The notes beneath the pieces are model-generated. The model searched no databases. It was not told the origin of the DNA and saw only the letters and a program-made list of their open reading frames with translations. The translations under genes and the position numbers were made by a program. This document shows, one piece after another, positions 6,753 to 62,800 of a stretch of 64,000 nucleotides of DNA. The stretch spans positions 41,912,001-41,976,000 of the forward strand of contig OX485806.1 of NCBI GenBank assembly GCA_950295325.1, in the 5' to 3' direction. Source of the DNA: Polytrichum commune. Lineage: Eukaryota > Streptophyta > Polytrichopsida > Polytrichales > Polytrichaceae. How positions within the stretch are numbered: position 1 is the first letter of the stretch; each line of letters opens with the position of its first letter.

Positions 6753-8130
6753 CTAACATATGTATTTCTACTTGCAGATGCCCCCCAAGAAAAGACCTGG
6801 AGAACGATGGTTCAAGCCGGCACCAGACGCGATCTGGCAGGAGCACGAAACTCCTAAAAACCAATCCTACGTAGCAAAAGAAGACCTTGTAATTGCATGG
6901 TCTTTTCTTGTAGTAAAGGCAGCTCAATTCAAAATCCTCCTTGTTTTGAAGGTTGGCACGGAGGAGCAACACACATGGGATGCTTTGACGGGATGGGAGG
7001 TGGCATCAGTTCATGCTCTAGGAGAGCACGTTGACGTCATCCTGGAAAACTCTTCTCTGGAAAATGTGCACATGTTCATGCATGAGCAAGCCGAGCCATT
7101 CGATCCGGTATACGTGAAGGAATCCTGCGCTGAGCCAGACATTGTTAAACCGGATACAATCTTCATAGATGCGATCATTTCAAACACGAAGGTTGCAACC
7201 AGGTTCACTAAACTTAAGCAGGCAATCAACGCAATAAACAAGACCCAGCAAAGCAAGTCAAAATCTCAACAAGCTGTGAGGCGCAAGGCGACTGCTGAAG
7301 AGGGCGCAGGGTCGTCAAGACCTCAAACAGTGAGGAAGCCCCGACCGGTTCCAGCTGACTCGAGGAGAACAACACCTACGGCAACTCCTGTTGATAGTGA
7401 AACACCGACGCCATCACAAAGCCGGCAGACGACACCATCTAAGAGGCCGAGAGAGTCAGTATCTGCCATGACAGATGAGCCTGTTTCACCGGAGCTACGT
7501 ATGCCCAAGCCCGGGGAAGGAGTGGAGCCATCGGAGATCCAGAAAATACTCAACAATTTCGACACCAAGTGTTTACATTGTTTTTTCATGGGCAGAGAAT
7601 TCAAGTTTGATGTCAACATCGCACAATGCCACCTAGCGCCACCAGAGAAGTGCGTTCGGGCAAAGGAAGATGCGTATGTTGATTGGTTAATCGCCCAGAT
7701 GGTGAGCGACCAGTTTAAACATGATAGGCAGACTATTGTTGTCATGCCTCAGGGACACAAAAGAATGCCTACACCGGATATGTGGCCTTCTATAGAGAAA
7801 GGCGATTTTTGGCTGATTGACGGTCAGCACAGTGTTGAAGCTTCAAAGAAACTTCAACTGATGACGGAGTGGAATGATCCTAATGGTCTAAAGGAAAAAT
7901 TGAAGGTATGGAAGGCATTGGTCGTGTGGTCGGACGACGAAACCCGGCTGAGCGATATCTCCCGCTATTTCAACATGAATAACAAGAAGCGGGCATATCA
8001 AGCTTCTTGGATTAGGAACATCATGGCATCGCGGGATGTGTGGGAGTTCTACGGCCGGCCTCCCAAGGAAAGGGAGAATGCAAAAGACAAGAATCCAAAG
8101 TGGGAGGTGAGCATTGTTTCTCAAACAGAG

Positions 8131-8370
8131 TTTGGGTCGCTCGACCCAAACTTTGGGTTTCTTCATACAGTTTGGGTCGCTCGACCCAAACTTTGCGTTT
8201 CTTCATACAGTTTGGGTCGCTCGACCCAAACTTTGCGTTTCTTCATACAGTTTGGGTCGCTCGACCCAAACCTTGTGTTTCTTCATACAGTTTGGGTCGC
8301 TCGACCCAAACCTTGTGTTTCTTCATACAGTTTGGGTCGCTCGACCCAAACCTTGTGTTTTAGTTTGTGT
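8131..8370. repeat. Perfect 40-bp tandem repeat of palindrome A (intron 1)
   Basis: Six units start at 8131, 8171, 8211, 8251, 8291 and 8331. Each is TTTGGGTCGCTCGACCCAAA followed by a 20-bp spacer ending cttcatacag. The palindrome is identical in all six; only the spacer varies by one or two bases. It lies wholly inside the intron 8107-8459. Confidence 0.95.
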
Positions 8371-9821
8371 TTGTCTACGCAGTTTGTTGTTCATTATTTT
8401 TCTTCTTTGTTTGGAAACAACATATTGAGAATTAACACGCATTCTATGCTCTTGTGCAGCTTTTCAAATACCAAATGATAAACAAGTTCTCCTCAATTGA
8501 CAATTCAAGTCACAAGCAAAAGAAGTACAATGAGCTAAGAGGAGAGATCTACTTGATTACATCATCCGACATGGTTTGGCAGAAGTGGAAGACAGTGTTT
8601 GAGAAACATGAGACAGGGGATCTCATGGATCCTGACACATGCAACCTCTTCAACTCGTCCTCTCGATTCAAGGCGATGAAGCCTCTCATGAGAGAATTCT
8701 TTAGAAGTCTGCAAGGTCTTTCGGAGGCGGAAATGGGGAAGGCGGCAACGCACATCTTGCACAACAACCCGACCCCTAAGAGATTTTGGGTGTACCCCAA
8801 AATAGTCTTCACCAAGCCGAAATCCTTTGTTCCTTCATGCTACACAATGAAGGAATGGGCGGAGAATAGGAAGAAGAAAACAACGATCGTCCAGGAGCTG
8901 CAGAAGCTAATCCCGGAAAAGAACATTTTTGTCGATGACGAGGTGAACGAGGTGAACTGGAGAGCGTTCAAGGCTGAATACAACTTCACCAGTGCATCCA
9001 TGGCAGCTCTGATCAGGGAGGCAGGAGAAGACTTTCTAAAGTCAAAACTGGTGAAGGGTGGGAAGAACCTGGCTCTTCCAGAACACTCGACGCGTGCCTT
9101 CTCAAACTTTATAAAGGAGAAGAAGATTGTAAGTTTTGAAGGGGATGCGCATTTCAACCTTGTCGCTTTTGACCCTATTAAAATCCAGGGATGGCCCGGC
9201 CTTGATTCCAGGAAAGAAATACGAGTAAGAGCAGCGGACCGGTTCCCCTTTGGTATAATAGACTTCCGGAGCATTCCTGGGAGTACGTTTGAGGGCACAA
9301 TGGGTACACCCTTCTACGAGCCCTTCATGTCGAAGTTCGTGGAGTATGCAAGCCCTAAGCTTAGGGAGGTCGATATGTGGCTGTGGATAGTAGAGGATAG
9401 GAGAGCAGAGTAGGTGTATGAAATTGTGAGGAAATTGCAGCCTGAGTATGCGGTGTCTAAGTCTCACTACATTGCTGCACCGGCGGAGGGGGTGTACACG
9501 ACACTAAAGGACAAGAAAACCAAAGTCATGAATTTGTTGTGCTTGTACTTTGTGTTCAAAGCAACCTTGCTGAAGGTGGAGAACCACCCCATAACCCGGA
9601 TGCAGAAACTATTCCAAGTTCCAGAAGGCCTGGGCGCAAGTAAGTCCCTCTACGACGAGGCAAAATATGCCATATACCATTCGGACGAGTTGCGGATGGA
9701 ATTCTATCTCCGAATAATGAGGGCCTTGACGAGAAGAGGGGACTGTATATTCAACGTCTTCGGCGGCACCAAGCCCGTCTTCGCTGGCATGGTAAGCTCC
9801 TTACCATAATTGTTTTCATAG

Positions 9822-9949
9822 TTTGGGTCGAGCGACCCAAACTAACACCGATGCTAGTTTGGGTCGCTCGACCCAAACTAACACCGATGCTAGTTTGGGT
9901 CGCTCGACCCAAACTAACACTGATGCTAGTTTGGGTCGCTCGACCCAAA
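9822..9949. repeat. Perfect 36-bp tandem repeat of palindrome A (intron 2)
   Basis: Four units start at 9822, 9858, 9894 and 9930 with a spacer ctaacaccgatgctag. The first has centre AG, the other three CT. The repeat lies wholly inside the intron 9792-10049. Confidence 0.95.
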
Positions 9950-11179
9950 CTATAACCTTTGCAATTGATATTAGGTCTTGTATGTACTTCCCCTTTTCGG
10001 TGGAATCACATGTTATGCCATATAATAACATCTGGTGGGATTTCTGCAGATGCTGGGGCTGAACGTGTACAGCTATGTAGACCTTAATGACATCCAATTC
10101 TACAAGGCCCAAAAATCATTGGCGAAGAAGATGGATATACTAGACTGGATCCCTGGGAGCTACGCCGAGGAGACTGTTGAAGGGGGTGAGAGCCCGCTGG
10201 ATAAGGCGAGGCGTGTCAACCCTGAAGAATTGGCCATAAAGGTTCCAGTTGCTGTACCAGAGCCTCTGGTCCAAGTGCATCCAGGCACATCCTCTCGGCG
10301 ACCGCGTGACGAGGAGGGGGAGGAGGAGGAGGAGGATGAGGAGGTGGAAGAGGAGGAAGAAGAGGCTAAAGTGGAGGGCGAGGTCGAAGAAGGGGGAACA
10401 GGCTTCACTCAGGAATCTGAAGCCCCTCAACGAAAGAAGGCAATGCGGGTAGCAACTCCACAAAGTAAGTTGGTGCCCGTCCTGACGGTTGATGATGCCC
10501 GCGACATGTACTCCAGGGATGCGACTGCCGCGTTCAGGGAGAGGAGGAAACTAAAAGGCAAGAAACTCTATGGCGAATATGCCATCGAGGAGACAATTGC
10601 CATTAGCAGCGAAGACGAGGACGACATGGAGCTCGCGAAACGGCTCAGGTCGGACCCTCCCTCTCCAGGTGCCTTCGCAGGGATGGTGAAGGTGAAGCCG
10701 GAAGTCCTCACCGTGCAAGAAGCCAACGAGAAGATGTTAAGGGACGAAGAACAACGCGTCCGCTTGCAAAAGGCCGCTGCTGAAGAACCCTCAGTGCGGA
10801 ACGAAGTGGCAGAGCTAAGGGCTCTCCTATTGGAGCAAGAGCGACTGCGGGCATTGGCGCAACCTCCAACTAGTGCGGACTTGATCACGCAAGTGATTCG
10901 AGGCATGTGGGCGCAGGGTTTGGTGGTGGCTCCCCCGGGCTCATTTCCACACTTGCCCCCCGGCTTCCCTCCCCAGAACATTCCTCCGCAGCCCGTGCCG
11001 CAATCCTCCTTCAGCTTTCAGCACATGGTTCCCCCCACGTCCGTCCGTATCCGCCGGTTCAACAAGCGGATGACCCCAATATATGGCGCCTTCCCGGGTC
11101 TTCTAGACCTGTGACCCCCCCACCACTTCGGCCGCCCCTAGTGATCCCCCCGCCCCATCAGCAGGACGACCCCCACATG

Positions 11180-11199
11180 TTTGGGTCGGCCGACCCAAA
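11180..11199. repeat. Palindrome A inside coding sequence
   Basis: A fully self-complementary copy, TTTGGGTCGGCCGACCCAAA, lies in the proline-rich tail of locus 1 and is read as FGSADPN. Its length keeps the surrounding frame open. Confidence 0.85.
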
Positions 11200-11502
11200 C
11201 CCCGTTACCGCTCAGTCTTCAATGGACCAGCATGGGTCTGAAAAAGACACACCCATGCCTGATGTTGAAGGTCCTCGAGGGCCTGGTGATACCTCTACTC
11301 CTATCCCAATCGATGAACCTATGCATGATGCACATGCGGAGGTTGGGTTAGGAGAAGGTCCTGACACTGAGCGCTTGCAGGAGAGGGGTGCTGACATCGT
11401 CGGAGAAGGCGGTGGCAAGAGAGAACGACAAGCGGAGGCGGTGGAGGCTTCCATGGCGTCCAGGCATGACCAGGGAGAGGTAATACACTGAGACCTCCTC
11501 AG

Positions 11503-11522
11503 TTTGGGTCGCTCGACCCAAA
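11503..11522. repeat. Single palindrome A in intron 3
   Basis: One perfect copy (TTTGGGTCGCTCGACCCAAA) lies just inside the intron 11480-11968. It is the last perfect copy in the window; only decayed versions follow (13363 and 13880-14130). Confidence 0.9.
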
Positions 11523-11968
11523 CTCCTGGTCTATTGTCTTGTTGCCGTGGTCGTGTCCCCCCTAGCTAGGAGGAACTGCCCCCACCCCGTCCATCCGCTC
11601 TCGCATCCCTTCAGCCCCCCCCCCCGACGATCACTAACGTCGCCCGTCCCACGATTTTACTCGAACTTGGAGGCGTGCACACAATTTTGTAGATGTTGAA
11701 TTAGGATAGTTTGAACGGATCGTTCAACGCGGCTTCGCACCCCTAGGCATTTTGTACATAGAGCATTGCAAACAATAAAATTATTATTTTGTGCCCTTAT
11801 GTTTGTTTTCGTGTTCAAATGTATATTTTTTCCTCTTGCCCCCTCTTGCATTTGTATGGCCGCCTATGCATAGTGGTTCTTGTATTTTTCACAGAAAATA
11901 TTGTATTCACTTTAAGTGGACATAGCATGACATAGTCTTCCCCCGCCTTATGTCGCTCGTCTCCACAG

Positions 11969-12781: not shown

Positions 12782-12785
12782 GGCA

Positions 12786-12788
<3 letters not shown>

Positions 12789-20934: not shown

Positions 20935-23513
20935 CTACTTTTTAACCAAAGGGTGAGTCAAGAGTCCGCTTTCTAGGACTAGCTTGGCCTCGTTGAAGCT
21001 AAAGGTAGGCGCGTGAATGAAAAGGTCGGCCTCGGGATCACAGTGGCAAAACTTCAAAAGGATGAAGTAAACATGCTTGCAATAAGAGAATTGGGTCCTC
21101 CCTCGAAACTTAGTCATCGTCTTCCTGAATGCAGGGCAAGTGCAACCCAGGAAAGAGCTAATGGTAACCTGGTACTGTGTGATGGCAGGAGGAACACCCG
21201 AATCCAGCCCGATGATGCAACCATGGCCTGGATGAGGTATCATAGTGATGGAACGGAGGCAAGCTTTGAGGGAGTCAGAGGAGGCCATGGAGAGTCGCTG
21301 CGCCGGATTTGGGCGAGTGGCAGTGCGTTTGACCATCTTGCCGTCTCTCTTGCCAGGGTAGCGGTCTGCTTCTGCAGGAATGGGCACCGCACTAAGATTT
21401 GTAGCCGGCGGGGCAGAAGAGAAGAGGCGTCTTGGAGAGACCGGTTTCTTATGCGGGAGTTGGAATCCAGCCGCTTCAAGGGCAAGAATTTCAGTGAGCT
21501 TGAGTTCTTCGGGAATGTGCTTCTCGGTATACTTAACCATAGACTGGGTCCAATGAAACTGACAAGTTCTCTCCCGGTCGTCCATGCGGTCCTCTTTTTT
21601 CCCGTTGTCATATACAACCCGAACTGCATTCCAGTTGGCCTAGGCGCTGTCGGCCATGAAACCCTTGAAATTGGGCTCGACGACGCCATTCCTCACCATG
21701 ACAACATTGAGATTCTTCCAGAAAACGATCTGGGCCTCAAAGTCCTCGGATTGCATATCACAGCTTGCAATGGTCATAACACGGCAATACGTGGAGTCAT
21801 ACACGTGGCATGACATTGTGGTCCATTGTCTTACCCATTTGACATGGTCGAACATCATCCACGCATTCTCCAAATCTTCGCCGGGCTGCATACGCTTCAC
21901 CAAGTGTACCCCACTACCAGGTCCGACTTCCGACATCTTGAAGACAAAAACCTTGTCAAGATCAACACCTTGACCTGGAAATTTGTTCTCCTGAACAAAG
22001 GCCCATAAACTGATTCCACGAAGTTTGGTGATAGAGTCCATGACACCATACCTTCTCAGGAAACGGAAGCTCATGACCTTGTTGCGGATGTTTGGAGAAG
22101 CCATGTCCTTGCATCGGTCAAATACAGGAACAAACTCCTCAAGAGTCAGCTTCTTTGGTGGCGCGTCCTCGGGTTGAAGAAGAAAGTTGCCAATTAGAAC
22201 CTTGCTAGCCTCCAACACCACTGCGCTCTTGGTAGCTTGGGGAATCTTATCGATATGCTCTTCAATTAGGCCACTGATCTCAGCCTTAGTGTCTCTGTAG
22301 TCGCCCACCTTGACTGGGTGATCATGAGTTCCTAGGTGGATACATGCTCTTGTTTGGTTGCTTTTGGCAACCACATAATAAATCTTAGCTCCACATGTAG
22401 CAATACATGCAAGGGGTTCTTTACATACCTTGCAAACAAACGTAGACTCAGTTGGGGGTGTTTGATCCACTACAAAGGCTTGGAGGGTACAACCTTCAAA
22501 CTCTGTCTCGTTGACTTGGAAGGTGCGAGGTCGGCGGTTCAGATAGTCGCACTCCTGGTTGTTGCAGTGCAGGTGTCCAACGCAGGCGGAATAACGGAAG
22601 GACAAACCAAAGTCATTTGTGATGTTGGTGGTGATGGTCTTCGTCCACACATGGCCGTCGTAACGCTTGTCCATTCCCTGCATTGACTTGGCCTGTGACC
22701 GTGCGGCCGTGTCACCAGGGGGTGGCAACTCAAATATGACGGCCCCATCGAACACAATAGGAAGATATTGTACTTTCTCGTGTCTAATCACTGAGTAATC
22801 TAATTTTTTAAGAATTGTTTTTTTCCCGGCCTTCCTGCAAGTCGTTTTATCAATGGAAATATGCTAACAGTCTCTTGCGACAAAGGATATACTTTAGGAG
22901 CATTCCCACTAACTATAACGTGAGGCGGGGGCTTGGTGGGACTGCCCTCTTCATCTGAAGAAAGTGTAATTACAGACTTAACTCTAACATTTTCTACAAT
23001 TGGCGTCTCGAGCCCGGGCTCGAGCTTGACCTTCACATCACGGGGCAAAAGAGTTTGAATGGTGCAGGTAGAGGAACAACGAGGAGTGAGGATCTCAGTA
23101 GACACAGCCATCTGAGAATCAGTGAGGCCATACACACGGTAACTACCTGGATTAAGACTCCAAAACAAATTATTGTTCTCATCTCGATGTGATAACCGAT
23201 CAATCGTGTGTGTAACATCTGACGTCAAATCGTCAAAAATATCTTCCTCAACACTAATAGTGTCCGCTCTGAAGTTGAACCGAAGACTTAGACGTTGTGA
23301 CGTCACGTAAGCTAGTCCGTCCTCTTCCATCCGAAAGGTAAGTGGAATTCTTACTCCATGTGCATAGAGGACAACCATCCCCAACTCTCCTTTAGATGGA
23401 ATATGAGCCATGATGAGTGGAATGAGGACTTGCACTAAGAGGAAAATATGAAAGAAGATTCTCAACATTTTGGGCCATCTATTTATTACTAATGTGCTGC
23501 CAACGACAAACAT
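20935..23513 (-). pseudogene. MULE-like SWIM transposase, copy M2 (damaged, internally deleted)
   Basis: The minus strand has three open segments. 23513-22800 is an N-terminal beta-rich region with GSYRVYGL, then an acidic linker. 22791-21640 holds a cysteine/histidine-rich zinc module (RYDGHVWTKT, CVGHLHCNNQECDYL, CKVCKEPLACIATC, CIHLGTHDHPVK), then the DDE-like core (CHVYDSTY, GFMADSA). 21585-20935 has the CxxH motif (ERTCQFHWTQS) and the SWIM finger (CTCPAF...CKHVYF). Lesions: one base lost in the T run 22804-22809, and an in-frame TAG at 21640-21642 (CAG to TAG, by comparison with ADSAQANW in the sister copies). An internal deletion joins HIPEEL to LTEILALEAAGF, removing about 350 residues present in copy M4. 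The transposase role is inferred from family motifs; this copy cannot be active. Confidence 0.8.
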
Positions 23514-40550: not shown

Positions 40551-40576
40551 TAGAAACTTGGTTGCCATGCCTTTGG

Positions 40577-46860: not shown

Positions 46861-47009
46861 CCCCAACTCCCTTGTGAATTTTGGGCTCAAGAAGGAGTGG
46901 TAGCCTCTTTGTCAACACATGAGACATTTCTCCCATTCATTGAGCCTCAAGGTACAAAAGATTTGGCCTTGGCTTAAGGCTACTAGCCTTGGCCACAATG
47001 CCATCGTCT

Positions 47010-47906: not shown

Positions 47907-48878
47907 TGTCGCGCACCTCTCCATGAGGAGTGCCCGAAACACCATGGGCACAAGGGGGACCCCGGAGTGACACCCGGGACTTGTGGCGCCGTTGGTGAGA
48001 GGGCCCAAGTGATCCTAGTGTGGGTGAGGGCCCCGGGCGTTGGGAACGCCTCCCACCCACGAAGACTAGGAGGCACAAGGGTAAGGCCATGAGTTATGCG
48101 TAGCTCATGGCGTGGTGATTCTAGAAAGCTCAAGAACACCTCAATCGGAGGTGTGAGCTAGGAGTTATGGCCATTTGAGTGGGGCGCTGTCCCGGGACAG
48201 CGCCCTGTTACAGCAGTGCCTGGGAGCGATTCCCAGGACTGCCAAGGTCCAAACAGGCATAACTTCCTCAATACTTGCCCGAATGGGGCAAGTGAGGAGT
48301 CCATCGGCATCTACGTGAAGCGTAGATGAAGATGGAGTAGTTGGTTGTTATGATCAGACATCATACAAGGAAGTTATGATGGTCTGAAGCTGCTGGGCGG
48401 TTCTAGGCCCAGCAGCTAAAGGAAAATGTCCACTTGGCCCCAACTCTTGGTAGAGAGACAAGAGGTTGGTTGACGGTGGGGTAGGGGCCCCGCGTGAAGT
48501 CCTAGAGGCTTATATGGGTGAGGTGGTGTGGCCTCACCCACCCGAGGCCAAACGGCAAGGCCTCCATGGGCATTGGCCCAATGTGAGGCCATAGTTGCCT
48601 AGTATGGTTCGGGTTGTTGTAGTGTTGCTCCGGCAACGCGATGATCAACATGGGATTGGACTTCCATGGATGGAAGTCCACATCTAGGAATGGGTTACCG
48701 ATTAAGGGGTGAGTCCCTAAAGCAAAGTAGGAGGGTTGGTTCCCTCCTATGAACTATAAGGTCCGGGGTAGGAGGAGCTAACCATTAGCATGGCGGAATG
48801 CGAATGGTTAGCGCTCGTAACCTTTGCTAGAATTGAAAATTGACAAGATTGCTAAGGGGGTTAGCAAGGGTTGCGACA
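47907..48878 (+). mobile_element. Solo LTR C nested in the gypsy element
   Basis: It begins TGTCGCGCACC and ends GTTGCGACA. The perfect target duplication CCCGC lies at 47902-47906 and 48879-48883. It is of the same family as its host element but in opposite orientation, so the pair 47907-48878 and 48950-49924 forms a near-1-kb inverted repeat separated by only about 70 bp. Confidence 0.92.
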
Positions 48879-48935
48879 CCCGCATTTTTGATAGCCATGT
48901 CTACCTCAAAGTGCTAGCTCAAATATTGGAACCCT

Positions 48936-48947
48936 GCTCTGATACCA
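48936..48947 (-). promoter_or_regulatory. Primer-binding site (initiator tRNA-Met type)
   Basis: The minus strand reads TGGTATCAGAGC two bases after the 5' LTR end. This 12-mer is the standard plant LTR-retrotransposon primer site complementary to the 3' end of initiator methionine tRNA. It fixes the element's strand. Confidence 0.9.
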
Positions 48948-48949
48948 AG

Positions 48950-49924
48950 TGTCGCAACCTTTGCTAGCCCCCCCTTGACCATCTTGCCAATTTTCAATTC
49001 TAGCAAAGGCTACGAGTGGCTAACCCTTCGCATACCGCCATGCTAATGGTTAGCTCCTCTAACCCCGGACCAATAGTTCATAGGAGGGAACCAACCCTCC
49101 TACTTTGCTTTCGGGACTCACCCCTTAATCGGTAACCCATTTTCCCAATGTGGACTTCCATCCATGGAAGTCCAATCCTATGTTGATCATCGCGTTGCCG
49201 GAGCAACACTACAACAACCCGAAGCATACTAGGCAACTATGGCCTCACAATAGGCCAAAGCCCATGGAGGCCTTGCCGTTCGGCCTCGGGTGGGTGAGGC
49301 CACACCACCTCACCCATATAAGCCTCTAGGACTTTACGCGGGGCCCCTACCCCACCGTCAACCAACCTCTTGTCTCTCCACCAAGAGTTGGGGCCAAGTG
49401 GACACTTTCCTTTAGCCGCTGGGCCTAGAAGCCCCCAGCAGCTTCAGACCATCATAACTTCCTTGTATGATGTCTGATACAAACAAGCGACCACTCCATC
49501 TTTATCTACGCTTCACGTAGATGCCGATGGACTCCTCACTTGCCCCATTGGGGCAAGTGGTGAGGAAGTTATTCCTGTTTGGACCTTGGCAGTCCCGGGA
49601 ATCACTCCCAGGCACTGCTGTACCAGGGCGCTGTCCCGGGACAGCGCCCCACTCAAATGGCCATAACTCCTAGCTCACACCTCCGATTGAGGTGTTCTTG
49701 AGCATTCTAGAATCACCACGCCATGAGCTATGCATAGCTCATGGCCTTACCCTTGTGCCTCCTAGTCTCCGTGGGTGGGAGGCGTTCCCAACGCCCGGGG
49801 CCCTCACCCACACTAGGATCACTTGGGCCCTCTCACCAACGGCGCCACAAGTCCCGGGTGTCACTCCGGGATCCCCCTTGTGCCCATGGTGTTTCGGGCA
49901 CTCCTCATGGAGAGGTGCGCGACA
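48950..49924 (-). repeat. 5' LTR of the gypsy element
   Basis: 975 bp, plus strand TGTCGCAACCT...GCGCGACA, followed by the target duplication CCATT. It should carry the element's promoter; a TATA-like cccatataag lies near 49314-49323. Confidence 0.92.
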
Positions 49925-52900
49925 CCATTATCCTCAACACGAAAGACAAAATCGGCTTGGTTATGCAAGTGATGCACAACATAAACAAGTAAGTGTGATT
50001 TTCAGCGTTTTTATTGTCTTTGAACATGTACCTGTATTCGATACATTTTCATATATGTATTGTTGTGTTTCAGGCACACCGAGGACTTCCATGTCAAAAC
50101 GAACACAGTCCACATGTTATTCAGAGTTAGAAAATATGGACAAATGGATCTTGAGAAACTGAAGGACATATTGTCAGCAACTGACTTTATGCGTTGTAAG
50201 CGTGGTCAAAAGAAAACATGGTACACCTTACCATTGAATGTTTTCACCTCCTTCATCTTTCAGGTTTGTGCACTTGTTCCTTTTCATTTCAAGTCATTTC
50301 AAGTCATTACTAAGCTTCAGTCATTTTGATTGAATGTATAGTTCGTTGACGTTACTGAATTCTTTTGTTTAAGGATTTTTTTGTAACATGCCTGTGTATT
50401 GTTTGCAGCATGAACTAACTTGTTGATAATTGGCAGCATGAAATAAGCATGGCTGTTGACGAAGGTGTCCGCTAGCTTATTGAGCAGTCTGATGGGGTTG
50501 TATCTCCTCCTCAAAAAGCGGCCGCGATGAAATCCGCAGTGGAGAAACAATGTATTGCATTGCGCCAGAAGATGGGAAAACTGGTCGCGGTTGCAAATCC
50601 AGACCTCACTGATGGTTGGTTTGATGAGGTTATTTGCATTCCTTGAATCCAGTGATTTATCATGTTAGTCATTCTAAATTTGATTTCAAAATATCTACTT
50701 TGTCTATTTTTAATGAGGACGTTGGCAATTGTCTAGATTGAGCGGCATTATACCAATAATTCAATATCTCCAGAGCTCAACTTAGAAAAACTTCAGCTAA
50801 TTGCTACGTCAAGAGCATCCCCGATTTCCAAAATCAAGTGGCTTCAATACATAAACGCCTCTGCCGCAACTCGAGAGGCAAGAAGAGTTCCTGCGAAGCG
50901 CGTTACCGAAGAAAAACTTTCAATTTTCCTAGCAAAGGCATGTTGGTGGGCTGGGGTATGAATATCTTGACACTTCAGTGTTTTCCAACAAAGTTTACAA
51001 TGTTCTTGCTGCATTCTAACTCATGTGTTAATTTTGAAATACTACATAAATTTGTTATATGGATCATATCAGTAGAAGTTTGAGAATTTGGAAAATTAAG
51101 CAAACACCTTTGCCCAAAGCTTGACCTCCAATGGTTGCTTTGGATTATGATAGGCCTAGTTGGTGCCCTTTTGAACCTAAACACTAATTGCAACCTCAAC
51201 ACATAACCCTTGAGAAGGTATCGTGATATTCTGGAACTAACCGGACTCAGCTGAGTGCTCCTTAACATTCCGCCGCCGCAGTGTGTGTATCGGGGCTGAT
51301 ACGTGCAAATCCTTTTTTTTTTTTTCCAAGTTGAATAATATGTCTTTGCTTTGCTTGTATCGGGGCCGATACATCCTCTATTGCATAATCAATTTGACCT
51401 CGTCCTTGACCATTAATTCGTTTCCTTGTTTTTCATTACTAATTTTTCATTTCATTTGGTAATTTTAATCCAACTCATTTATCAACTCGTTGATATTGTG
51501 TAATTTGTTTTCATTCAGATTTCCAATCATGCGACAAACATGTTTGAAGACATAGTTCAACAGGATCGCATCCCCATCGACATGTCTGTGTTTTCGGAGC
51601 CTCTAACTTTGGTTGCATATATTGAGGAATGCAGGATCATGCTTTGGGACCATGCATTTGTCTCGGTGTTTCGCAGTCACGACTGCTTTAAGAAAATTGA
51701 TGATTTCCAGGGATACAAGGGAACGAACCTTGTTGTGAGAAGAGTCCTATTCAGGTGTTTGCTCTGTTTTCCTTTCATCCTTTGATTTGATACTTCTATT
51801 TCCCTCTTTATCAATTCCAACTTTTTCATATTCTTATGGCCATCATTATTTTCCAGGTTCTTCAAGTATGAGCTCCTCCCAAAGAAAGCGATTCTGAAAG
51901 AGGACTTGCCGGTTTTCTTGAGTACTTGGTTGGACCGGTCCAACGCTTCATGCATGTTCACAGCTGCCCAGAAGAGGACATGGACGACTTCGCACCTTAC
52001 TTCTGGCGCGTGGTATCTCGATTGTGCTACACATTACACCCCACCTTTTGAGATGGAATTGAGGAAATCACGCGAGGCTATTGGAGAGTCTGGAGAGGAG
52101 ATGGAGGACTTGAAGGGCATCCATGATGACAACGACAGGGCTAAGGCACTCAAGAGGTGGATTGAAGAGGACCGCAAAAAAACCCTCAAGGTCAAGGAGG
52201 CAGAAGAAAAGGCTCACCTGAAGGAGTTGGAGAGGCAGCAGAAAGCAACTGCAAAATCGACGAAGAAAGGCAAGAAGAAGGTGACTACTCCTGGAGAGGT
52301 AGAAATGATAAGTCATGTGCAGCCTAGTCCAACCGTGGACTCTGGTTCCCAGATTCGCTCAGTTTCAGCTAGGGGTACTAAGAGGGACACCTCATATGAG
52401 CTTCTTTCCCAGTTGCCGATTGTTGATCTCACAGAGGACACCAATTGCATGAATGATGAGTTCATTCTAAACTCTTCATTGTTTGAGGTCCTTGGCGGTG
52501 AATCGGGCAGTTTGTCACCCCTCTACGATGACCTCAAAGCTTTTATGTCTAAGGTATTTTTGTTTTTATTTGCCCATCTGATGTGGTTCTCTTTTGCAAC
52601 TGCTAGTATTACTTGTCCAATTCTGTTTGCTTTTGAAATTGTTACGTTTCTTACATGCATTGAATTGCTCATTGAGCAACATTCATCTGATAAAAGGCGT
52701 GCGCACAAAGGATCTTCTGGAAACCACCCTTGTGTGGATTTGATCCTTGTGGACCAACCAGAAGGTCTCCCAATTCCAGGTATTTCGAACCCTATTTCAT
52801 CTGTGCCCTTATGGAACCAGGATTCTAAGGAATGGCTGGAGCCCATTTTTTATTTTGCCGACCAACACCTCCAGGATGATGGTGCATTCATCATCCTTCA

Positions 52901-54199
52901 TCCGTTTCGATTGAGCACAAAGTCAAACATACTCGGATACTGCAAGTCATACGGTTTTGAAATCCGCAAGGAGTGGTGAGGGATGAACCGTCTGCATTTG
53001 ACATCAGCAGTATATCCGACATCCACTGTAAGTGATTTGATCTTGAAATGCATATGTTTTTGTTTGTCATATATTTGTTATTATTTTTGATTGTAATCTT
53101 TGCCCTTTGTTCTTGTCCAGCATGCCCAGTTTGGATCTTCACACATTATTTGATTCTCCATGGACATTGTCAATCTTGTCTAATCTTCTTGTTCGAATGC
53201 CAGACCATGAGATTTGGCATCTGTTTGGCGGTGAGGAGTCTTCCAGGGGTTCCCAAGTCTACATTTTCTTTTCAGCCAATCCCTGCTCTTGACCACCACG
53301 GAGTAGACTTTGCCAGAGATGACATCCTCATGAACCTGGTCACGAAAGATGATCAGCTCATGAATGGCAATTTACCTTGGCGAGGCCCTCGGGAGAAGTC
53401 CGTCTTGCTCAGGCAGATGCTTATAGAAGCATCTACCTTTCCTGGGGATCTCGTGGTTGACTGCACTGCAGCCACTGGTTCGTTTTTTCAACCTAAACCC
53501 TACTCAGTCTCAGTTTATTTGTACATTCACTTATCACCTAAATCATGTTCACTTCTCTAGGGTCGTCCATACACGCTTGTCGCAATATCAACCGACATAT
53601 TGCTGCGTTGGAGCCGGATGAGGAAATCTTCAAGGCCTTACTGGCACCCCTCATCCGGGCTTCACCTACTCTTTCGCCTCCTCACCTGGATCCACTCACC
53701 ATCGTGGATGACATTGATGGCGAGGAAATTGAAGTTGAGCGGATCGTGAAGAAATCCCGATTCAGTAAGTAAGTCTAAACGGTCAAGTATGCATTTCTAT
53801 TGAGATCATGTTGATTTATGTTACTTCTTTTTGTTGTCACTTCTTATTGAAGCCTTTCATTTTGCAGGTGCGAGATCTTGATTTCTCCACATCATCGACC
53901 TTTTTTTTGTAGGCCGACATTTTTCCCAAGCCCTCCTAAACCCTTTGAGTTGCCTACATATGCCGAAGAAATTGCTTTTTGATTTGCAAGTGAGGACATA
54001 CGGAATCCCACTTCGCGCTCCCGTTCTCTGTCTCGTAGAGGCTTGAGTTTTCTAGATCTAGAAGTTGTTCAGTGTGATGAGGAGGAGTGAACGCATTCGT
54101 ACACTTTTTCAATGATTGATTGCGATTTTAGGCGAATGTTGTGTTGAATAAATGACCCTAAACCATTAGTGTCACCTCATGTAACTTGGCATTCAAGTG

Positions 54200-55171
54200 T
54201 GTCGCGCACCTCTCCATGAGGAGTGCCCGAAACACCATGGGCACAAGGGGGACCCCGGAGTGACACCCGGGACTTGTGACGCCGTTGGTGAGAGGGCCCA
54301 AGTGATCCTAGTGTGGGTGAGGGCCCCGGGCGTTGGGAACGCCTCCCACCCACAAAGACTAGGAGGCACAAGGGTAAGGCCATGAGCTATGCGTAGCTCA
54401 TGGCGTGGTGATTCTAGAATGCTCAAGAACACCTCAATCGGAGGTGTGAGCTAGGAGTTATGGCCATTTGAGTGGGGCGCTGTCCCGGGACAGCGCCCTG
54501 GTGCAGCAGTGCCTGGGAGTGACTCCCGGGACTGCTAAGGTTCAAAGAGGCATAACGTCCTCATAACTTGCCCAAATGGGGCAAGTGAGGAGTCCATCGG
54601 CATCTACGTGAAACGTAGATGAAGATGTAGTGGTTGATTGCTAGCAATGGACATCATACAAGGAAGTTATGATGGTCTGAAGCTGCTAGAGGCTTCTTAG
54701 CCCAGCGGCTAAGGGAGAATGTCCACTTGGCCCCAACTCTTGGTAGAGAGAGAAGAGGTTGGTTGACGGTGGGGTAGGGGCCCCGTGTAAAGTCCTAGAG
54801 GCTTATATGGGTGAGGTGGTGTGGCCTCACCCACCCGAGGCCGAACGGCAAGGCGTACGTGGGCATTGGCCCATTGTGAAGCCATAGTTGCCTAGTATGG
54901 TTCGGGTTGTTGTAGTGTTGCTCCGGCAACGCGATGATCAACATGGGATTGGACTTCCATGGATGGAAGTCCACATCTAGGAATGGGTTACCGATTAAGG
55001 GGTGAGTCCCGAAATCAAAGTAGGAGGGTTGGTTCCCTTCTATGAACTATATGGTCCGGGGTAAGAGAAGCTAACCATTAGCATGGGGGTATGCGAAGGG
55101 TTAGCGCTCGTAACCTTTGCTAGAAAGCAAAATTGGCAAGATTTTAAAGGGGACTAGCAAGGGTTGCGACA
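54200..55171 (+). mobile_element. Solo LTR E
   Basis: TGTCGCGCACC...GTTGCGACA, 972 bp. The perfect target duplication AAGTG lies at 54195-54199 and 55172-55176. It is inserted about 110 bp downstream of the stop of ParB-methyltransferase locus 3, in its 3' flank. It is slightly more diverged from the other copies (for example ggcgtacgtggg in place of ggcctccatggg). Confidence 0.92.
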
Positions 55172-55176
55172 AAGTG

Positions 55177-57823
55177 TCTTTTCTAATACCTCTGAATGAG
55201 TATGTTCAACAATGATATGAGATGCACACCTATATTACACAATGGTCTACAAGTTGACTAAAGTGTACACCAACGAAAAGTGTACCCTAAACCCTCCTTC
55301 CACTCTATTACTCAATAAGACATAGAGGTTAACTAAAAAAGATAAAGAAATATAGTTGTAAACATATAGATCAAAACATGAAACAAAGACTAAGGAAAAC
55401 TAAACCGAAAAACTAAACCAAAAAATTAAAGATGATAAGTATAGAATATCAATACGTTTTTTAGAATTACAAATAATAAGAAGATACATTGGAAGAAGAA
55501 TGGAAGAATTAAAAAATGAGAAGATAGACTGGACGAAGAATGGAATAACCCAAAAAAGGCTTGTGCATAAATTATGGACATCATCCTATGTTTTAGGTTC
55601 AAATCAAACATCAAACCCCAAGAAATCCGGGGCCATATCCAAAGTGGCCACTCCCATATGAAATATGAACCATTTGGCATGCCGAGACTCAACCTGAAAC
55701 CAATGATTTGAGGTCAAATTTATAAATTCAGGTTGAATGTAGCTAAGCATGAAACCCAAACATTGCATGCCCTCATTCAACCTGAAGCTATCAACTTGAC
55801 CTCAAATCAAATTTAAAATCCCTAGGCCTTGTCCAAAGTGGCCATATATGCCGAGACCGAACATGAAATCTAAGCCGTTGGGCATGTCGAGACCCAAATT
55901 AAAACCAATGATTTGAGGTCAAATTTATAACCATGGTTATAGGTTCCTCAACCACGGTTATAGGTTATTTTTGTCAAAAATATTGTCAAAATATTTCAAT
56001 ATTTAGCTCTACACCGCGGTCATAGGGCATGTTTCACCACACAAAATTTCAATATTCTAGAAAACTTACCGCTCACCGCTCACTGCTCGCAAAATAGCTT
56101 TTCCCACCCATATTGTACTATTTTGCAACAAAACCTGATACTAAGGTGAAGGGAAAAGACAGATGCAAATCCGTTCGCATGAATGGGGGGAAGAAGGGGG
56201 ATCCCGATGCCATTGGCACGGAACTCAACCATTTCTCATACACATGGCATTGTGGATGAAGAAGCCATGGACAAAGAGAGGGACAAATAATAGAAAAATC
56301 CAAATAAGGAAAATGAGGCACGGCTACCAAAGAATTGTAAACCCTTAACGTTGAACAGTGGTACTATAAAGGTAAGAGAAGGTCGGTGAAGGGTCATTTT
56401 GTGAGTAAAGTAAAGGGATGCCCAAAGAGTAGAGAGCACGAAAGAGAGGAAGAAAAGGGAACTGGAACGCACACATGAATGAACCAGACCAAAATACAGT
56501 CTCCATAATCGATCCATGAAAGAAGCGTAAAAAGATAAAGAGAAGGACGAGTTTCAGCAATTCGAAACAGAGGAGACGGAGAGAACTAAAGAAGAAGAAG
56601 GAAACGTGCATAGAAGGAAGAGGGACCCCATTAGACTCGCAGACTACGTGTGCAGTGGATAAGGGAGGGTTGAATCTGCAGTCAATAGACGAAGAAGGGG
56701 AAGACAGTGGTTCACAAACACCATCTATGGCAGAGAGCGTGCATCGCAACAGTTTCAATCAGAGCAGGTCCCGCGAGGGGAGAAGGGAGAATTCGATGAA
56801 TACCGTAAGTTTGTCGTAAAGCTTATATGCACAAGGGGTACTTCAAGATTTAGGTTTATGGGAATATGACACATGAAATTCAATTATCTAAATATGGGAG
56901 AGAACTTGCAAAGAATAGGGCAAACAATATATGGATAGGGCTAAGGAAACAAAAAGGAACCTTGAGTGGGAGACATGCACCTGGGTGGGTTTGACACCCA
57001 CCTGCCTGCATTATAGCAAAAAACCTTAGTTGGTTATGGACTAAAGAACGACCCTCTCGGATTCGAGAGGGTCTTTCATTGAGGGATTGAGGATAAGATT
57101 TTGAATTCAAGGTTGTATATGTTCAATGTGTAGATAAGGCAAAGTTGTGTGGACTAGTTCGGTTGATAGTGTCGGGTAGGACATAAGGACCATATTTTGA
57201 ATTCAAGGTTGTGTATGTTTTATGTGTAGATAGGTACAACTTGTGTGCACTAGTTCGGTTGATAGTGCCGGGTAGGACATAAGGACCAGATTTTGAATTC
57301 AAGGTTGTGTATGTTGTATGAGTAGATAGGGTAAACTTGTGTGGACTAGTTCTCCTGATAGTGTCGGGTAGGACATGAGGACTAGATTTTGACTTGAATG
57401 TTGTGTATATTGTTAGTGTAGTTGGGTTCAACTTGTTTGGACTGGTTCGGTTGTGATGGTGAAATAATTGGGTATGGACTAGAGAAGGACCCTCTCGGAC
57501 CCGAAAGGGTCTTCAGTTGAGGGCTTGAGGACCAGATTTTGACTTGAATGTTGTGTATATTGATTGTGTAGTTGGGTTCAACTTGTTTGGACTGGTTTGG
57601 TTGTTCTAGTTTGAGGGCATTAAGACTAGATATTGACTTCAAGGTTGGCACTTTATGTGTGTAGTTAGGGTCAACTTGTGTGGAGTAGTTGGGTTGGGAT
57701 GTTGAAATATTTTGGTGTAGACTACAAAATGACCCTCTCGGATCCGAGAAGTCTTTTCTTTAAAGCATGTTGACCACATTTGACTGCAAGGTTCTAAAGC
57801 TTGAATGTGTTGAAATTTTGCAG
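55177..57823. other. Geneless spacer with repeat fragments
   Basis: No supported gene. A direct repeat aaccaatgatttgaggtcaa occurs at about 55698 and 55903. An inverted copy of the AGCGG-headed repeat lies at about 55980-56091. Open frames at 56118-56758 on the minus strand are hydrophobic, overlapping and without motifs. From 57050 the palindromes of family B begin, embedded in imperfect repeats of the phrase agggcattaggaccagattttgacttcaagg. Confidence 0.5.
55980..56091 (-). repeat. AGCGG-headed dispersed repeat, copy 5
   Basis: On the minus strand gcgagcagtgagcggtgagcgg is followed by AT-rich sequence with cctatgaccgcggtg, matching copy 4 at 35008. Confidence 0.55.
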
Positions 57824-58290
57824 GGATCACCATCCATAGATCTCATTCTTTCGGAGGAGCCCTCAATGGAGAACCATAATGTTCCATTGGCGGTTCCTAT
57901 GGTATGAAATGGGGCATTGCTTCATCTCTTTTGTCAATAGATGTTTCATTTATTCGAGTTCCCTTCTTTGTTGTTCCTTGTAATTTTAGTCGTTGCCTAA
58001 TATTTTGGTGGTTACCCTTGTAGAATGATGCACAAGTTGCAACCGACTTTTTGTGTCCTCTTGATGAGTCCAACCCAGAGGAGACTGAGCTCTTGATTCG
58101 GAGATCGCAAAAACAAGACTCTAATGTTGTGATTCACTGGCTTCGAATGAAACCTCTTCATAAGTCGCGTTTCTCTATCCCATTGTGCCGCTTGTGATGT
58201 CTTCCACTTGTTCGTCCCATCAACGAGGTTGATGTCGCTTGGTTGGAAAATGAGTCCGTCATGGGTTACCGTGACGGTGACCGAGCCTTG

Positions 58291-58307
58291 TAGGGTTTAG
58301 GGTTTAG
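58291..58307. repeat. Telomere-type repeat inside the ParB exon of locus 4
   Basis: TAGGGTTTAGGGTTTAG lies where the sister locus 3 reads a strand of the ParB-like domain. It breaks the frame. Confidence 0.75.
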
Positions 58308-59569
58308 AACCTTGTTGTCTCTCCCTACAACAACCTCAATGAGGTACTCGATGTCTCCGATGACATCCACAATTCTTGGAGTTCCTTATGGCAAGATGCT
58401 AATGAGGAATTCGACGCCATGCTCCAAACTGACCCTGACCTTGAACACCTTTGTGGCAAGGTGTTCTATGTGTGGGAGGGTAATCACCGTTTGTCGGCTT
58501 GGTGGAGGCACACTAATAAGCATCATTCACTAGATAAAGGTTGGCATATCTCTGTTGACTGTATTGTCGTGGATCCAAGAAATTGCACCGCCGTCTTCTT
58601 GAATGCCATGAATGACATCAATTGGTAAGTTCAGGTTTCTTTCCCTTGTTTCTTTTCCTTTTCTGTTTTCCTTTTATGTTTCATTGTTTTTGGGACCCTC
58701 ATTATTATTATTTTTAGGTCCACGGAGCACGATCATGTTAAGGACAACCTCCCCGCCAAATTGCTTCGCATTCATACATTTGCAAAAATGAAGCTTGAGG
58801 ATTTCAAGGACTTCATTTTTGTTGACGACTACAAGATGTGCGAGGCTAAGATGGAGAAAAATCTTACTTGGTATCCCCTCACATTGGACATCTTCGTCAA
58901 GTTTTTATACAAGGTAATTTTTCTTCTCGCTCTAGTTTTTTCCTTTCTCATGTTTTGTGCATTTATCCTTACACACATTTATGTTTGTTTTAGAGAGAGA
59001 TCTCCAATTCGGCGGATACTGCTGCACGGTTATACCGTGAGGCCACTCCTGAGACTCTAAGATCTGCTCATGGGATTTGGGATGCTATGACAAAAGCCCA
59101 GGATAGATTGATCAAAAGTATTCGATCTTGGAGCTTTGAAAAATTCAACTCCGTCGCCCACAAGGACAATGGCGATGACTTCTTCCAAGAGGTACTCCCT
59201 GCACCTCTTTAATTTTTGTTTGCTTCCACCTTCGTGCTTTTCTACTTGTGCTTTATGTATATTCCCTTACATTACACTATTCATTTTTGCAGATTGACCG
59301 TCATTTTTCCACCTTCCTCGTCCCGGATATGACTATTGAGAAACTGCAAAAGGTGGCAACTACACATGTGGATGCTTCCTTTAAGGCTAGATGGCTTCGG
59401 TGGTGGAATTCCCCCGCCGAGGTCAAAACCATAAACAAGTTCCCCTCTTCTCTTCCTCTTCGCGAGAAAGCCCTCGATGACTGGCTTCACAAAGCTTCTT
59501 TTTGGGCACATGTGCTCCAATACCTTATACTTTTTAATTTGTTCTCTTTCACTCTTTGTCATTTCTAAC

Positions 59570-60360
59570 TGTATGTTTGTTGAGGGTGACATTGCCTCAT
59601 TTCAACCTCGAGGGCATTATGACTATATTTTGACCTCAAGGTTGTAAAGCTTGTAAGGGTAGATAGGCTCAACTTGTACGTAGTAGTTTTTTTGATATGT
59701 TGTATTAGTTGGGTATGCACATGACCTCGACCCTCTTGGATCTGAGAGGGTCTTCGTTCATAACAATAGGACTAGATTTTGACTTCAAGGTTGGGAAGGT
59801 TTGATGTGTAAATTGGTTCAATTTCAGTGGACTAGTTTGGTTGATAGTGTGAGGGTAGGGCATTAAGACCAGATTTTGGCCTCAAGGTTATGAAAATTAT
59901 ATGTGTATATAACGTGAATTTGTTGTGGACTAGTACGGTTGATAGTGTTGGGTAGGACATTAGGACCATATTTTGACTTCAAGGTTGGGTACATTGAGTG
60001 TGTAGTTAGGGTCATGTTGTGTGGACTAGTTTGGTTGTGATGTTGAAATAGTTGGGTGTGCACTAGAGAACGACCTTCTCGGATCCAAGAGGGTCTTTTG
60101 TTGAGAGTATTTAGACCAGATTTTGATTCCAAGGTTGGGTGCCTAGAGTGTGTATATAGGTTCAACTTGGGTGGCCTAGTTGGGTTGTGATGTTGAAATA
60201 GTTTGGTGTGTTCTAGAGGACGACCCTCTCATATCCAAGAGGGTCTTTTGTTGAGGGCATGAGGACCAGATTTTGCCTTCTATGTTGGATACTTTGTATG
60301 TTTAGTTAGGCATTAGGACCAGATTTTGACCAGAATTCTAACTTCATGTTTGTCTCATTT
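59570..60360. repeat. ~150-bp imperfect repeats in intron of locus 4
   Basis: Recurring phrases are gaccagattttgacttcaaggttggg, gtggactagtttggttg and gttgaaatagttgggtgtg, each cycle ending with a family B palindrome and gggtcttttgttgaggg. Related units occur at 57080-57790. Confidence 0.7.
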
Positions 60361-62800
60361 TAGTTGGAGAAAGGGGTTGAGGGTGAGATCGCCTCATTTG
60401 AAAATGAATGCTCCATCGACATCGCCTGGGTTTCTACGGAAGATCTTTTGCAACCTGCTCATTTTGTCGAGCATTGGAGGCTCATTTTGTGGGACAAGGC
60501 TTTTCGGGTGTATTTTGATGACAAGGGAGTCTTGAAATTCACCAAAGGACTCGATCTCATGGAGTTCGAGGAAGGTCCCATAGCTATCAAACGCGTTACT
60601 TACCGGTAATCATTTTTCTTCTTCTTCCTTTGTTTGTTTTCATTTTTTTAACTCCATTTATTTGTTCTCATGTTCTCCAATGTGTAAGTACATTAATCGT
60701 GAGCTTGTCGTAAAGAATGCTATACTTTCTTTGTCCTTACCGTCATTCCTTGACGACTGGATCAATGACAACTCAAATCTTTGTATGTACACGACCATAT
60801 AATTTGTAAAATTTCCATGCGTGCATTTGGTGTCTGGTGGTTGGTACTTGGATTGTTCTCGTGGATTCGTTCCCGATGTAGAAGAACCCCTCTACGACAG
60901 CCTCACTTCCTCTGCCCCTAAGGTAATTGAATTGGAAGAAGAGCTGGAAGAAGATGAAAATCCGGCTCCTCCCACCAATGACAAGGAGGTTGAATTGGTG
61001 AAGGCTAAGGGCAAAGGCAAGAGGGTGGCCTCCAATCAAGTTTCCACCCGTTTTTTCACCAAGGCCTCCGTTTAGCGCACTACAGCTCCAGCTACCACGG
61101 TTGTCGGAAGTCCAACGGCAACTCCTTCTGCCCTTGCTCGGGACCATGTTCCAGCTCATTTCCATAGCGGTGTCACCATTCCCTCCGTGCCGCGCAAGAA
61201 GAAGGCCGTTGCCCCTGATACCTCCCCAACTTCTTCTAAGAAGTCGTTTTCTGTCTTTTTGATTGAGAATGTCGACATGGGGGACCTCATAGAGGATCTC
61301 ATGCGGTCTAAGGTTCCCCCTCCGGTTTACCGCCACATCCAAGAATTCCTTACTAAGGTCAGTGCGACATTATTCTGTTTACCCGTTCTTTCATTCTAAT
61401 TCAACACTTGTTTTCTTATATTTTTCTTTGGATTTTTAATTTGCAGGTTGGAGCGGGTTGTACTCGTCCTAATAGCAAGCCTAAGGTGCACACTGGGTTT
61501 AATATACTCTTCGTAGATGTGTTGGAGAACCTTTCTATGCTGAGCATCTCGTCATCATCGTCGGATGTTCCTCAATGGAACAAACGTTCTTCGACTTACT
61601 TTGAGGTTTTGTTTGCCTTTGCAAACGCCAACCTCCATGACAACGGCGTTCTTGTCTTTGCACACGCCTCTGATCCTGATGTGTCTAGATCCATACATAA
61701 CTAGGCACATACAGAGGACTTCTATGTTGCCGAAGATTGGTTTGGCATGAATGACCTTGACCTCTAATCGCCCATTAATCCATCTGATTTGGTAATTTCT
61801 TTCTTGCCTCATCATTTTCTATTCTTATCTTTTTTTTCCTTGCATTTTTGTATTCCTAATTCTACCCTTTTCATTTCTTGCAAACTCGCAAGTTCTTCAT
61901 CAAGGTGCTCGTGTGTAAGGAATCTGTTTTGAATGTCCGGACCTCGGACTTCGAAGACATGGGTTACAATCTCAAAAGAGATGGTTGGCTCAATAGCTTC
62001 GCCGATTCGAAGAACCAGTCGATGAGGAAAGACGGGGTGCCTTGGAGAGGTGCTCCTGAAAAACGCCCCGAGTTTTTCTCCATCATTTTCTCCTCCTTCA
62101 CTGACAAGGACGATATTATCATGGATTGGTAATATGGCGTTGGTTGGTTTTCAATCTCCTTCTTCTTCATGTCTTAGTTTTTTTATGTTTTGCTTTCTTT
62201 TATGTTCTTTCTATTTCCCAATCATTCCCTTATGCTTACCTTCTCGCATTTTGTTCTTCTAGGAGGTTCCATCATTGCATGTCGATCCATTCAACGCCAT
62301 ATTGTGGCGCTTGAATCGGATATCGACATCTTCAAGTCCATCCTCCTCCCCATGCATGAGACTGAGCAAGAACACACTTCTCAGGATGCTACCCCAAAAC
62401 GAGGGTCGGTTTTTGCTCCTCCTCCCCGGAAGATGGCAATGCACAATTTTCATTTGTTATGTGCGTAAGTTTGTTCTTGGCTTCTAACTTGCTTGCTTGC
62501 ATTTCTATCTTCTCGATTCCGGATTTTTGGCATGTGCTATTTTTTTTTGTTTTCTAGTTCTATGTTTTCTGAGTTCATATTGAGAGCCCGATTCGTGTCC
62601 TTAATGCGGACATGTTTACAACCCCTTCGACAACATTTAAGCTCCTTTCGTATCCTGCTGACCTTGCCCATATTTTGGATGAAGTACCGTCCCCACCTCC
62701 TAGTCGCACCCGCCCTTTCAACAAGCTAGTTTTGGATTTCCTAGACATAAAGGCCGACCATGGTGAGGATAGTGATAGACATGGTAGTCCAAGTTCTTGA

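Follow-up and report, generated by a model that had tools for sequence, protein, structure and literature searches.

Palindrome arrays and a ParB-like/methyltransferase-like accessory gene in a DNA transposon family of Polytrichum commune

The stretch of DNA analysed here, in the following called the window, comprises 64,000 nucleotides of Polytrichum commune (contig OX485806.1; C4:41912001-41976000 in an assembly of 408 Mb and 64 contigs). It carries four loci, L1 to L4, for which a preliminary description had proposed one common layout of a ParB-like signature, a middle part and a methyltransferase (MTase)-like end. Exons were assembled manually with GT-AG borders and between-copy homology as guide (Table 1). 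The signatures DGQHSVEA, DGNHRLQAW, DGNHRRQAW and EGNHRLSAW are indeed located at L1, L2, L3, and L4, respectively, and a WRGPxEK-type block with a motif-I-like end is present in L2, L3, and L4 (WRGPKEK, WRGPREK, and WRGAPEK). The middle motif GGWYLDC, formerly assigned to L2-L4, occurs literally only in L4 and reads CGWYLDC in L2 and GAWYLDC in L3. Damage was seen in all four window copies (4/4; Table 1). In case of L3, given before as 41.6-54.1 kb, the length of the locus is inflated by a solo long terminal repeat (LTR) and an LTR element inside the ParB exon. With both removed and the flanks rejoined, this exon is alignable to L2 and L4. No start of L3 was located upstream of 40555.

L3 and the transposase-like gene T3 are located on opposite strands of a complete element with terminal inverted repeats (TIRs) at both ends. 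The two repeats share AAGCTATTTTGC..GTGAGCGGTGAGCGGTAA (33/35 match in an alignment by eye), and the element is flanked by a perfect 9-bp target site duplication (TSD), CCCATATTG, at 34982-34990 and 56107-56115. Due to the fact that L3 and a transposase-like gene share an element with TIRs and a 9-bp TSD, the loci are not ordinary plant genes. The earlier frame of a multi-copy plant gene family, in which transposase-like partners and palindrome arrays did not appear, was thus the wrong one. The transposase-like genes T1, T2, and T3 are about 35-71% identical to each other (tblastn pieces), and from its position the T3-L3 element appears to have inserted within the 5' part of T1. For the T2-L2 element the TIR search gave the right end only, and scanning 16-24 kb for the TSD candidate GTCGAGGGG with ≤1 mismatch returned no match. 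Further SWIM-like transposase C-terminal pieces are situated left of T2 (17961-19897, minus strand), with terminal-repeat-like sequences beside them at 17967 and 19706. Element ends of L1 and L4 were looked for and none was found.

The codon pattern of DGNHRxQAW gave 49 exact matches in the 408-Mb assembly, including L2 (control: 0). Six of the copies that have one exact motif in common (subX) were examined in 30-kb contexts. Their element ends are the inverted repeats GAGCGACGCTATTTTGCGAGC... and GAGGAATGCTATTCTGTGAGC..., and between these ends a transposase-like gene and a ParB-MTase gene occur on opposite strands, divergent as in T2-L2 and T3-L3. The head-to-head layout of T2-L2 is also repeated in the relative subY, located at C1:29607259-29623258. 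TSDs of relatives were TTTAGGACT for C1m (9/9), GTGCAAACT for C2b (9/9), and CCCAAGACC/T for C5p (8/9). TIRs and a 9-bp TSD, one of them 8/9, were therefore present in all elements with both ends resolved (4/4: T3-L3, C1m, C2b, and C5p). One or both ends lacked a resolved position in C2a, C3m, C4p, subY, subW, subZ, and T2-L2, as did both ends in L1 and L4. Mutator-like elements (MULEs) have TSDs of 8-11 bp. L2, L3, and L4, and probably also L1, represent damaged copies of one accessory gene of a DNA transposon family that resembles Mutator-type elements. Sola membership was considered and rejected, since the 9-bp TSD argues against it in view of the TSD length of Sola elements (no Sola model was scanned by name). 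In the context of subW (L098-L099; 10354-15886, minus strand), an L2-like ParB-MTase gene encloses an inverted L3-like one, the latter accompanied by a terminal-repeat-like sequence at 8420, and the elements thus seem to insert into one another.

Table 1. Features of the window, with positions counted from its first nucleotide
Feature	Position	Strand	Remarks
L1 palindrome sites	796..11523		GTTTGGGTCG-NN-CGACCCAAAC; 39 sites (0-2 mismatches), 31 perfect 22-mers
L1 exon 1	6778..8106	+	ParB-like signature DGQHSVEA
L1 exon 2	8460..9791	+	FGGTKP motif-I-like end; in-frame TAG at 9411
L1 exon 3 and tail	10050..11114	+	
T2	20938..23558	-	SWIM-like transposase-like gene, head-to-head with L2; SWIM E=0.0055, under cut-off
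L2	24027..29504	+	ParB-MTase-like pseudogene, start uncertain
180-bp tandem array in L2 intron	24957..25493	+	TGCCGT-NN-ACGGCA exact at 25010 and 25370, one mismatch at 25190
L2 ParB-like part	about 25690-26116	+	frameshift in T run near 25940
L2 middle	about 26204-27440	+	
L2 MTase motif IV exon	about 28000-28350	+	motif IV interrupted by a stop (28074)
L2 WRGPKEK and motif I	about 28607-28920	+	
L2 last piece	about 29004-29200	+	
Right terminal repeat of T2-L2 element	30418..30452	-	matches subY
T1	30453..35060	-	third transposase-like copy, fragmented
Complete element with T3 (-) and L3 (+)	34991..56106		TIRs at both ends; 21.1 kb
T3	35453..39223	-	SWIM-like transposase-like gene, several open reading frame pieces, directed away from L3
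L3	40555..54090	+	ParB-MTase-like pseudogene; in-frame TAG and two LTR insertions in ParB exon
L3 ParB-like exon	40555-40576 + 41557-41888 + 49930-49988	+	
Solo LTR in L3 ParB exon	40577..41551	-	TSD TTTGG
LTR retrotransposon in L3 ParB exon	41889..49924	+	TSD CCATT (41884-41888 / 49925-49929)
L3 middle exons	50074-50263, about 50437-50640, 50737-50955, about 51516-51755, about 51852-52553	+	
L3 intron palindrome sites	51286..51373		TGTATCGG-NN-CCGATACA; two sites, one exact, one with two mismatches
L3 motif IV exon	about 52697-52978	+	DQPEG
L3 exon with WRGPREK and motif I	about 53198-53482	+	
L3 last exons	about 53560-53770, about 53868-54090	+	
Solo LTR between L3 and right end of element	about 54199-55172		
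L4 palindrome sites	57050..63464		GACCCTCTCGG-NN-CCGAGAGGGTC; 10 sites (0-4 mismatches)
L4	58024..62800	+	ParB-MTase-like pseudogene; several stops and one frameshift
L4 marks	near 58475, near 60838, near 62043	+	EGNHRLSAW, GGWYLDC, and WRGAPEK, respectively

In the alignment of L2-L4, identity to L2 is 27-36% for the MTase-like part and 34-37% for the ParB-like part. The MTase part of L3 passes the cut-off of the Pfam family PF01555 (N6_N4_Mtase; 28.7 bits vs 26.7, E=1.6e-6). That of L2 does not reach this threshold (17.8 bits, E=0.0034), and the Pfam scan gave no PF01555 match for L4 or L1 individually. Searched against PDB, the group profile of L2-L4 matched DpnA (5hfj; E=1e-6) and CcrM (E=0.0044). 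Compared to phage ParB-MTase fusions by hhalign, it scored 61.6 (shuffle maximum 21.5, n=20). The beta-class motif order, i.e., motif IV, the HPxEKP block and then motif I, is kept in the L2-L4 alignment and in the hhalign comparison. As judged from these profiles, assignment of the C-terminal part of L2-L4 to a beta-class N6/N4 MTase domain is statistically safe at the level of the group. The MTase homology claimed earlier thus holds for L2-L4, and the profile-profile comparison of spliced proteins suggested there returned an MTase match for these three loci as a group.

Motif IV reads DQPEG in L3, DIPEG in C4p, and DLPEG in the inverted copy in subW. It reads EYPDG in subY, C1m, and C3m, KYPDG in C5p, and a stop followed by YPDG in L2; by alignment, the motif of L4 is VDVLEN. 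The catalytic motif of beta-class MTases is [DNS]PP[YFW], with a base stacking role of the aromatic fourth residue. None of the nine copies read carries this motif (0/9), in agreement with the loss of the aromatic residue of DPPY reported before. The tetrad is mostly replaced by DxPE or EYPD, and its fourth position is now D, E or N. Due to this replacement of DPPY by mostly conserved tetrads, ordinary base methylation was probably lost from the MTase-like domain, with binding of DNA or S-adenosylmethionine (SAM) probably retained.

The ratio omega of nonsynonymous (dN) to synonymous (dS) substitution rates was calculated by Nei-Gojobori counts with our own script. For the motif IV exon, omega was 0.09 in the pair subY/L2 (dN 0.048, dS 0.532; 109 codons) and 0.06 between C4p and the inverted copy in subW (95 codons), where dS (2.1) is almost saturated. 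The ParB exon gave 0.05 for subY/subW (144 codons; 13 nonsynonymous and 41 synonymous changes), and its 3' piece 0.12 for subY/L2 and 0.18 for subW/L2. Values of 0.15 and 0.28 were obtained for the transposase piece and for the motif-I exon of subY/L2, respectively. Pairs within subX were left out due to the closeness of the copies (omega 0.04-1.64, ≤7 changes of either kind), and saturated pairs with infinite dS yield no omega. ParB and motif IV exons are open in several relatives. The protein is under purifying selection in the relatives, and because the motif IV exon shows an omega of 0.06-0.09, the changed tetrad is a kept feature of the family and not a sign of decay.

With three sequences, the ParB-like part of L2-L4 scored 22.9 in the profile comparison (shuffle maximum 18.3, n=20), and L1 alone reached 19.4 with the phage profile (shuffled maximum 15.0). 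The former ParB reading is plausible, although suggestive rather than proven, and at its N-terminus the protein probably carries a DNA-binding domain of ParB/Srx type. A scan of phages with the ParB part of L2 gave 7 records, all with E of 0.9 or worse and none annotated as ParB (0/7), and the ParB part of L3 had no match in plasmids. Scans of viral contigs with the L3 middle piece, pieces A4 and A3, and L1 exon 2 gave no relatives. L1 is only tentatively regarded as the fourth member. A relative of its exon 2 is located in context C2a (L079-L081; 4365-5159, minus strand; 39.7% identity, E=1e-54), and the L1 type is therefore present elsewhere in the genome.

Palindromes arranged in arrays accompany several of these loci. 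In L1, the sites are situated upstream, in both introns (8130-8351 and 9821-9950), and downstream, in arrays of differing units (40, 36, 32, and 73/38 bp) as well as singly. Beyond 14.2 kb of the window this palindrome was not found with ≤5 mismatches allowed. The L4 palindrome occurs upstream, in one intron (59729, 60072, and 60222), and downstream, and nowhere else in the window with ≤6 mismatches allowed. Of the 17 mismatches in the L4 sites, 6 represent C>T or G>A changes located at CpG, as deamination of 5-methylcytosine would give. TGCCGT-NN-ACGGCA (P2) was seen as a trace in the L2 intron before subY was examined, and then recurred 17 times in subY of the L2 family (TGCCGTTAACGGCA). For C4p of the L3 family, 22 sites of TCTCGG-NN-CCGAGA were found, most of which are extended to TGTCTCGG-NN-CCGAGACA. 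GTGCCT-N-AGGCAC is represented by 24 sites in C2b, the listed ones mostly inside GGGTGCCT-N-AGGCACCC, and by 4 sites in C5p. In L1, L4, subY, and C4p, sites lie between exons of the ParB-MTase gene.

A palindrome family was counted with an arm of 6, a spacer of 0-4, and at least 4 exact sites, at 13 loci: L1-L4, C1m, C2a, C2b, C3m, C4p, C5p, subY, subW, and subZ. The contexts of C4p and subW hold two ParB-MTase genes or pieces each and were counted once each, and palindromes that occur once in each of 5 LTR copies were excluded. By this rule, a family was present in L1, L4, C4p, subY, C2b, and C5p (6/13) and in none of five 8-kb control stretches placed arbitrarily at round coordinates (0/5). 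The ATCCCA family of C2a, with 6 sites spanning 889-26988 (26 kb), was not counted as element-linked, and a spacer-6 family of 4 sites in C1m falls outside the rule. Under a looser rule, a 170-bp array upstream of L3 gave two clusters (4 and 3 sites), L1 and L4 gave further ones and L2 none; three other window stretches had no family (0/3). Never more than 2 sites (arm 6, spacer 2) occurred in 100 Markov-1 windows. When LTR-borne sites and local tandem repeats are set aside, a further palindrome family with at least 3 sites was not found in the window.

Among the neighbouring features, an NLI/FCP1-like phosphatase domain is located directly 3' of L1 (11936-12778, plus strand; Pfam NIF, E=1.2e-15), and a Ty1/copia-type retroelement remnant with RVT_2, rve and gag_pre-integrs at 14608-17546 on the minus strand. 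The LTRs of about 975 bp around L3 belong to one family with one element and two solo copies (Table 1), and an inverted copy is nested at about 47907-48900. The Rfam scan of the whole window gave nothing.

Considering all observations, a transposon accessory ParB-MTase with palindrome self-recognition is the best explanation we can offer, and we regard it as evenly poised between right and wrong. In complete elements, a SWIM-like transposase-like gene and the ParB-MTase gene are arranged head to head on opposite strands. A dimeric ParB-like domain would read the element's own palindrome in introns and upstream DNA, and the MTase-like domain may bind DNA or SAM without ordinary catalysis. The protein-palindrome complex might then mark the element or shield it from host silencing, or bring the transposase, similar to VANC. 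It is tempting to speculate that a phage-type ParB-MTase was turned into a self-recognition system, in which each lineage reads its own parS-like palindrome, the non-catalytic MTase is a selected DNA or SAM sensor that shields or licenses the element, and protein and palindrome co-evolve; this fuller version is put forward tentatively.

Several observations weigh against palindrome self-recognition by a transposon-encoded ParB-MTase. No counted family is present in L2, L3, C1m, C2a, C3m, subW, and subZ (7/13), the 8-kb control stretches are shorter than the elements, and sites within one tandem array are not independent. In case of C4p, 12 of the 22 sites are located left of 4 kb and thus possibly outside the element, whose left end was not located. 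A second palindrome (AAATCT, spacer 0) recurs in the arrays of C4p, as expected of a simple tandem repeat. Concerning the ParB-like part, a profile of 12 sequences scored 23.3, with 1/100 shuffles higher (23.65). The Pfam and PDB scans of the ParB-MTase pieces gave no ParB match, and AlphaFold2 (AF2) run without an alignment on the L1 ParB exon returned a predicted local distance difference test score (pLDDT) of 34. Next to L1 and L4, no piece resembling the transposase was detected. The scanned transposase pieces had no Pfam match above cut-off, the MULE transposase domain included, and SWIM remained sub-threshold.

The palindromes might instead be bound by the transposase, or represent plain minisatellites gathered by long elements and unrelated to the ParB-MTase protein. 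The many sites within tandem arrays and the 7 of 13 loci without a counted family are consistent with this, but the L1 22-mer is constant across arrays with different units and as single sites, sites lie between ParB-MTase exons in four loci, and none of the five control stretches had a family (0/5). We consider this explanation rather unlikely. Still less probable is an MTase that is active despite its unusual motif IV (EYPD/DxPE) and has the palindromes of its element as methylation targets. Such an activity is supported by the strong purifying selection acting on the motif IV exon, by a recognisable motif I, and by the accessible part of PMC12477816, where modification of its own transposon is suggested for the Ectocarpus protein; the absence of [DNS]PP[YFW] from all nine copies and D, E or N at the fourth position speak against it. 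As described in the accessible part of PMC5512222, several ParB domains, including one in fusion with an adenine methylase, have DNase or nicking activity, and the ParB-like domain could likewise be a nuclease or nickase that aids transposition rather than a reader of sites. This we hold to be improbable, as it leaves the palindrome arrays unexplained.

A further possibility, namely that an ancient enzyme is decaying and has left the four loci as relics with no present function, agrees with the stops, frameshifts or insertions in all window copies. The decay considered in the preliminary description is indeed valid for these copies, and only for them. For the family it is contradicted by the relatives, in which omega is 0.05-0.09 for the ParB exon and the motif IV exon and several of which have these exons open, and as an account of the whole it is very improbable. 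With regard to L1, the likeness may be due to chance and the locus may belong to an unrelated gene family, which we consider a substantial possibility, if short of an even one. Its MTase part does not beat shuffles, with 15.9 vs a shuffled maximum of 18.4 for the phage profile and 20.8 vs 21.2 for the L2-L4 profile, and its ParB part (16.8) lies under the shuffle maximum of 20.1 with the L2-L4 profile. On the other hand, the signature, the motif order, and a palindrome array of like kind connect L1 to the other loci. The one layout formerly ascribed to four loci, including its MTase end, is accordingly shown for L2-L4 only.

ParB-MTase proteins in transposons of brown, green, and red algae have already been published (PMC12477816), and the accessible part of that source suggests that the algal proteins bind their own transposon, without naming a target site. 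Common to both cases, as described there, is a single protein with ParB-like and N4/N6 MTase-like parts, which is encoded by a DNA transposon and lies on the other strand than the transposase. Unlike the algal case as presented in that text, in which neither arrays nor a changed motif are mentioned, the family described here has a 9-bp TSD, a SWIM-like transposase, a selected altered motif IV, and element-specific palindrome arrays. As far as shown, and in relation to the accessible part of PMC12477816, new aspects are the other type of element, a non-canonical motif IV kept by selection, and the element-specific palindrome arrays. Among the titles and abstracts listed, the literature search on ParB-MTase in eukaryotic transposons led to this one paper, and palindromes with these genes were not searched in print; the accessible text of PMC12695648 contains no ParB.

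A close parallel in layout is VANC of the VANDAL elements of Arabidopsis. According to the accessible part of PMC5735166, the targets of VANC form tandem repeats, which are located in introns of the element's genes as well as upstream of its transposase gene and differ between related transposable elements. Similar to the family described here, a second protein besides the transposase is encoded by the element, and motif arrays that differ between elements occur in introns and upstream DNA, although in our case a palindrome family was counted in 6/13 loci only. In contrast, DUF1985 and DUF287 are the VANC protein domains named in that part instead of ParB or MTase, neither of these DUF domains was listed in the Pfam scans of the ParB-MTase pieces, and the text contains no word starting with "palindrom". 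Phage ParB-MTase fusions, e.g., of Ruminococcus phage NatCom_23091 and others, share the order of ParB followed by MTase in one protein. The Ruminococcus phage gene was the best-covering, though weak, tblastn match of the L3 MTase part among phages (E=0.1). It is annotated as a ParB-like partition nuclease and carries both domains, and it differs by a canonical TDPPYG in an ordinary uninterrupted gene. The N6-adenine methylase of the DIRS1 retroposon, as described in the accessible part of PMC3537659, likewise represents a catalytically inactive methylase-like domain on a eukaryotic mobile element, but DIRS1 is a retroposon with a tyrosine recombinase, and no ParB part is named there.

Resolved elements with TIRs and TSDs, arrays between their own exons, and a selected motif IV make the idea of palindrome self-recognition directly testable. 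If true, transposons would have evolved VANC-like self-targeting a second time and independently, in this case from phage-like parts.

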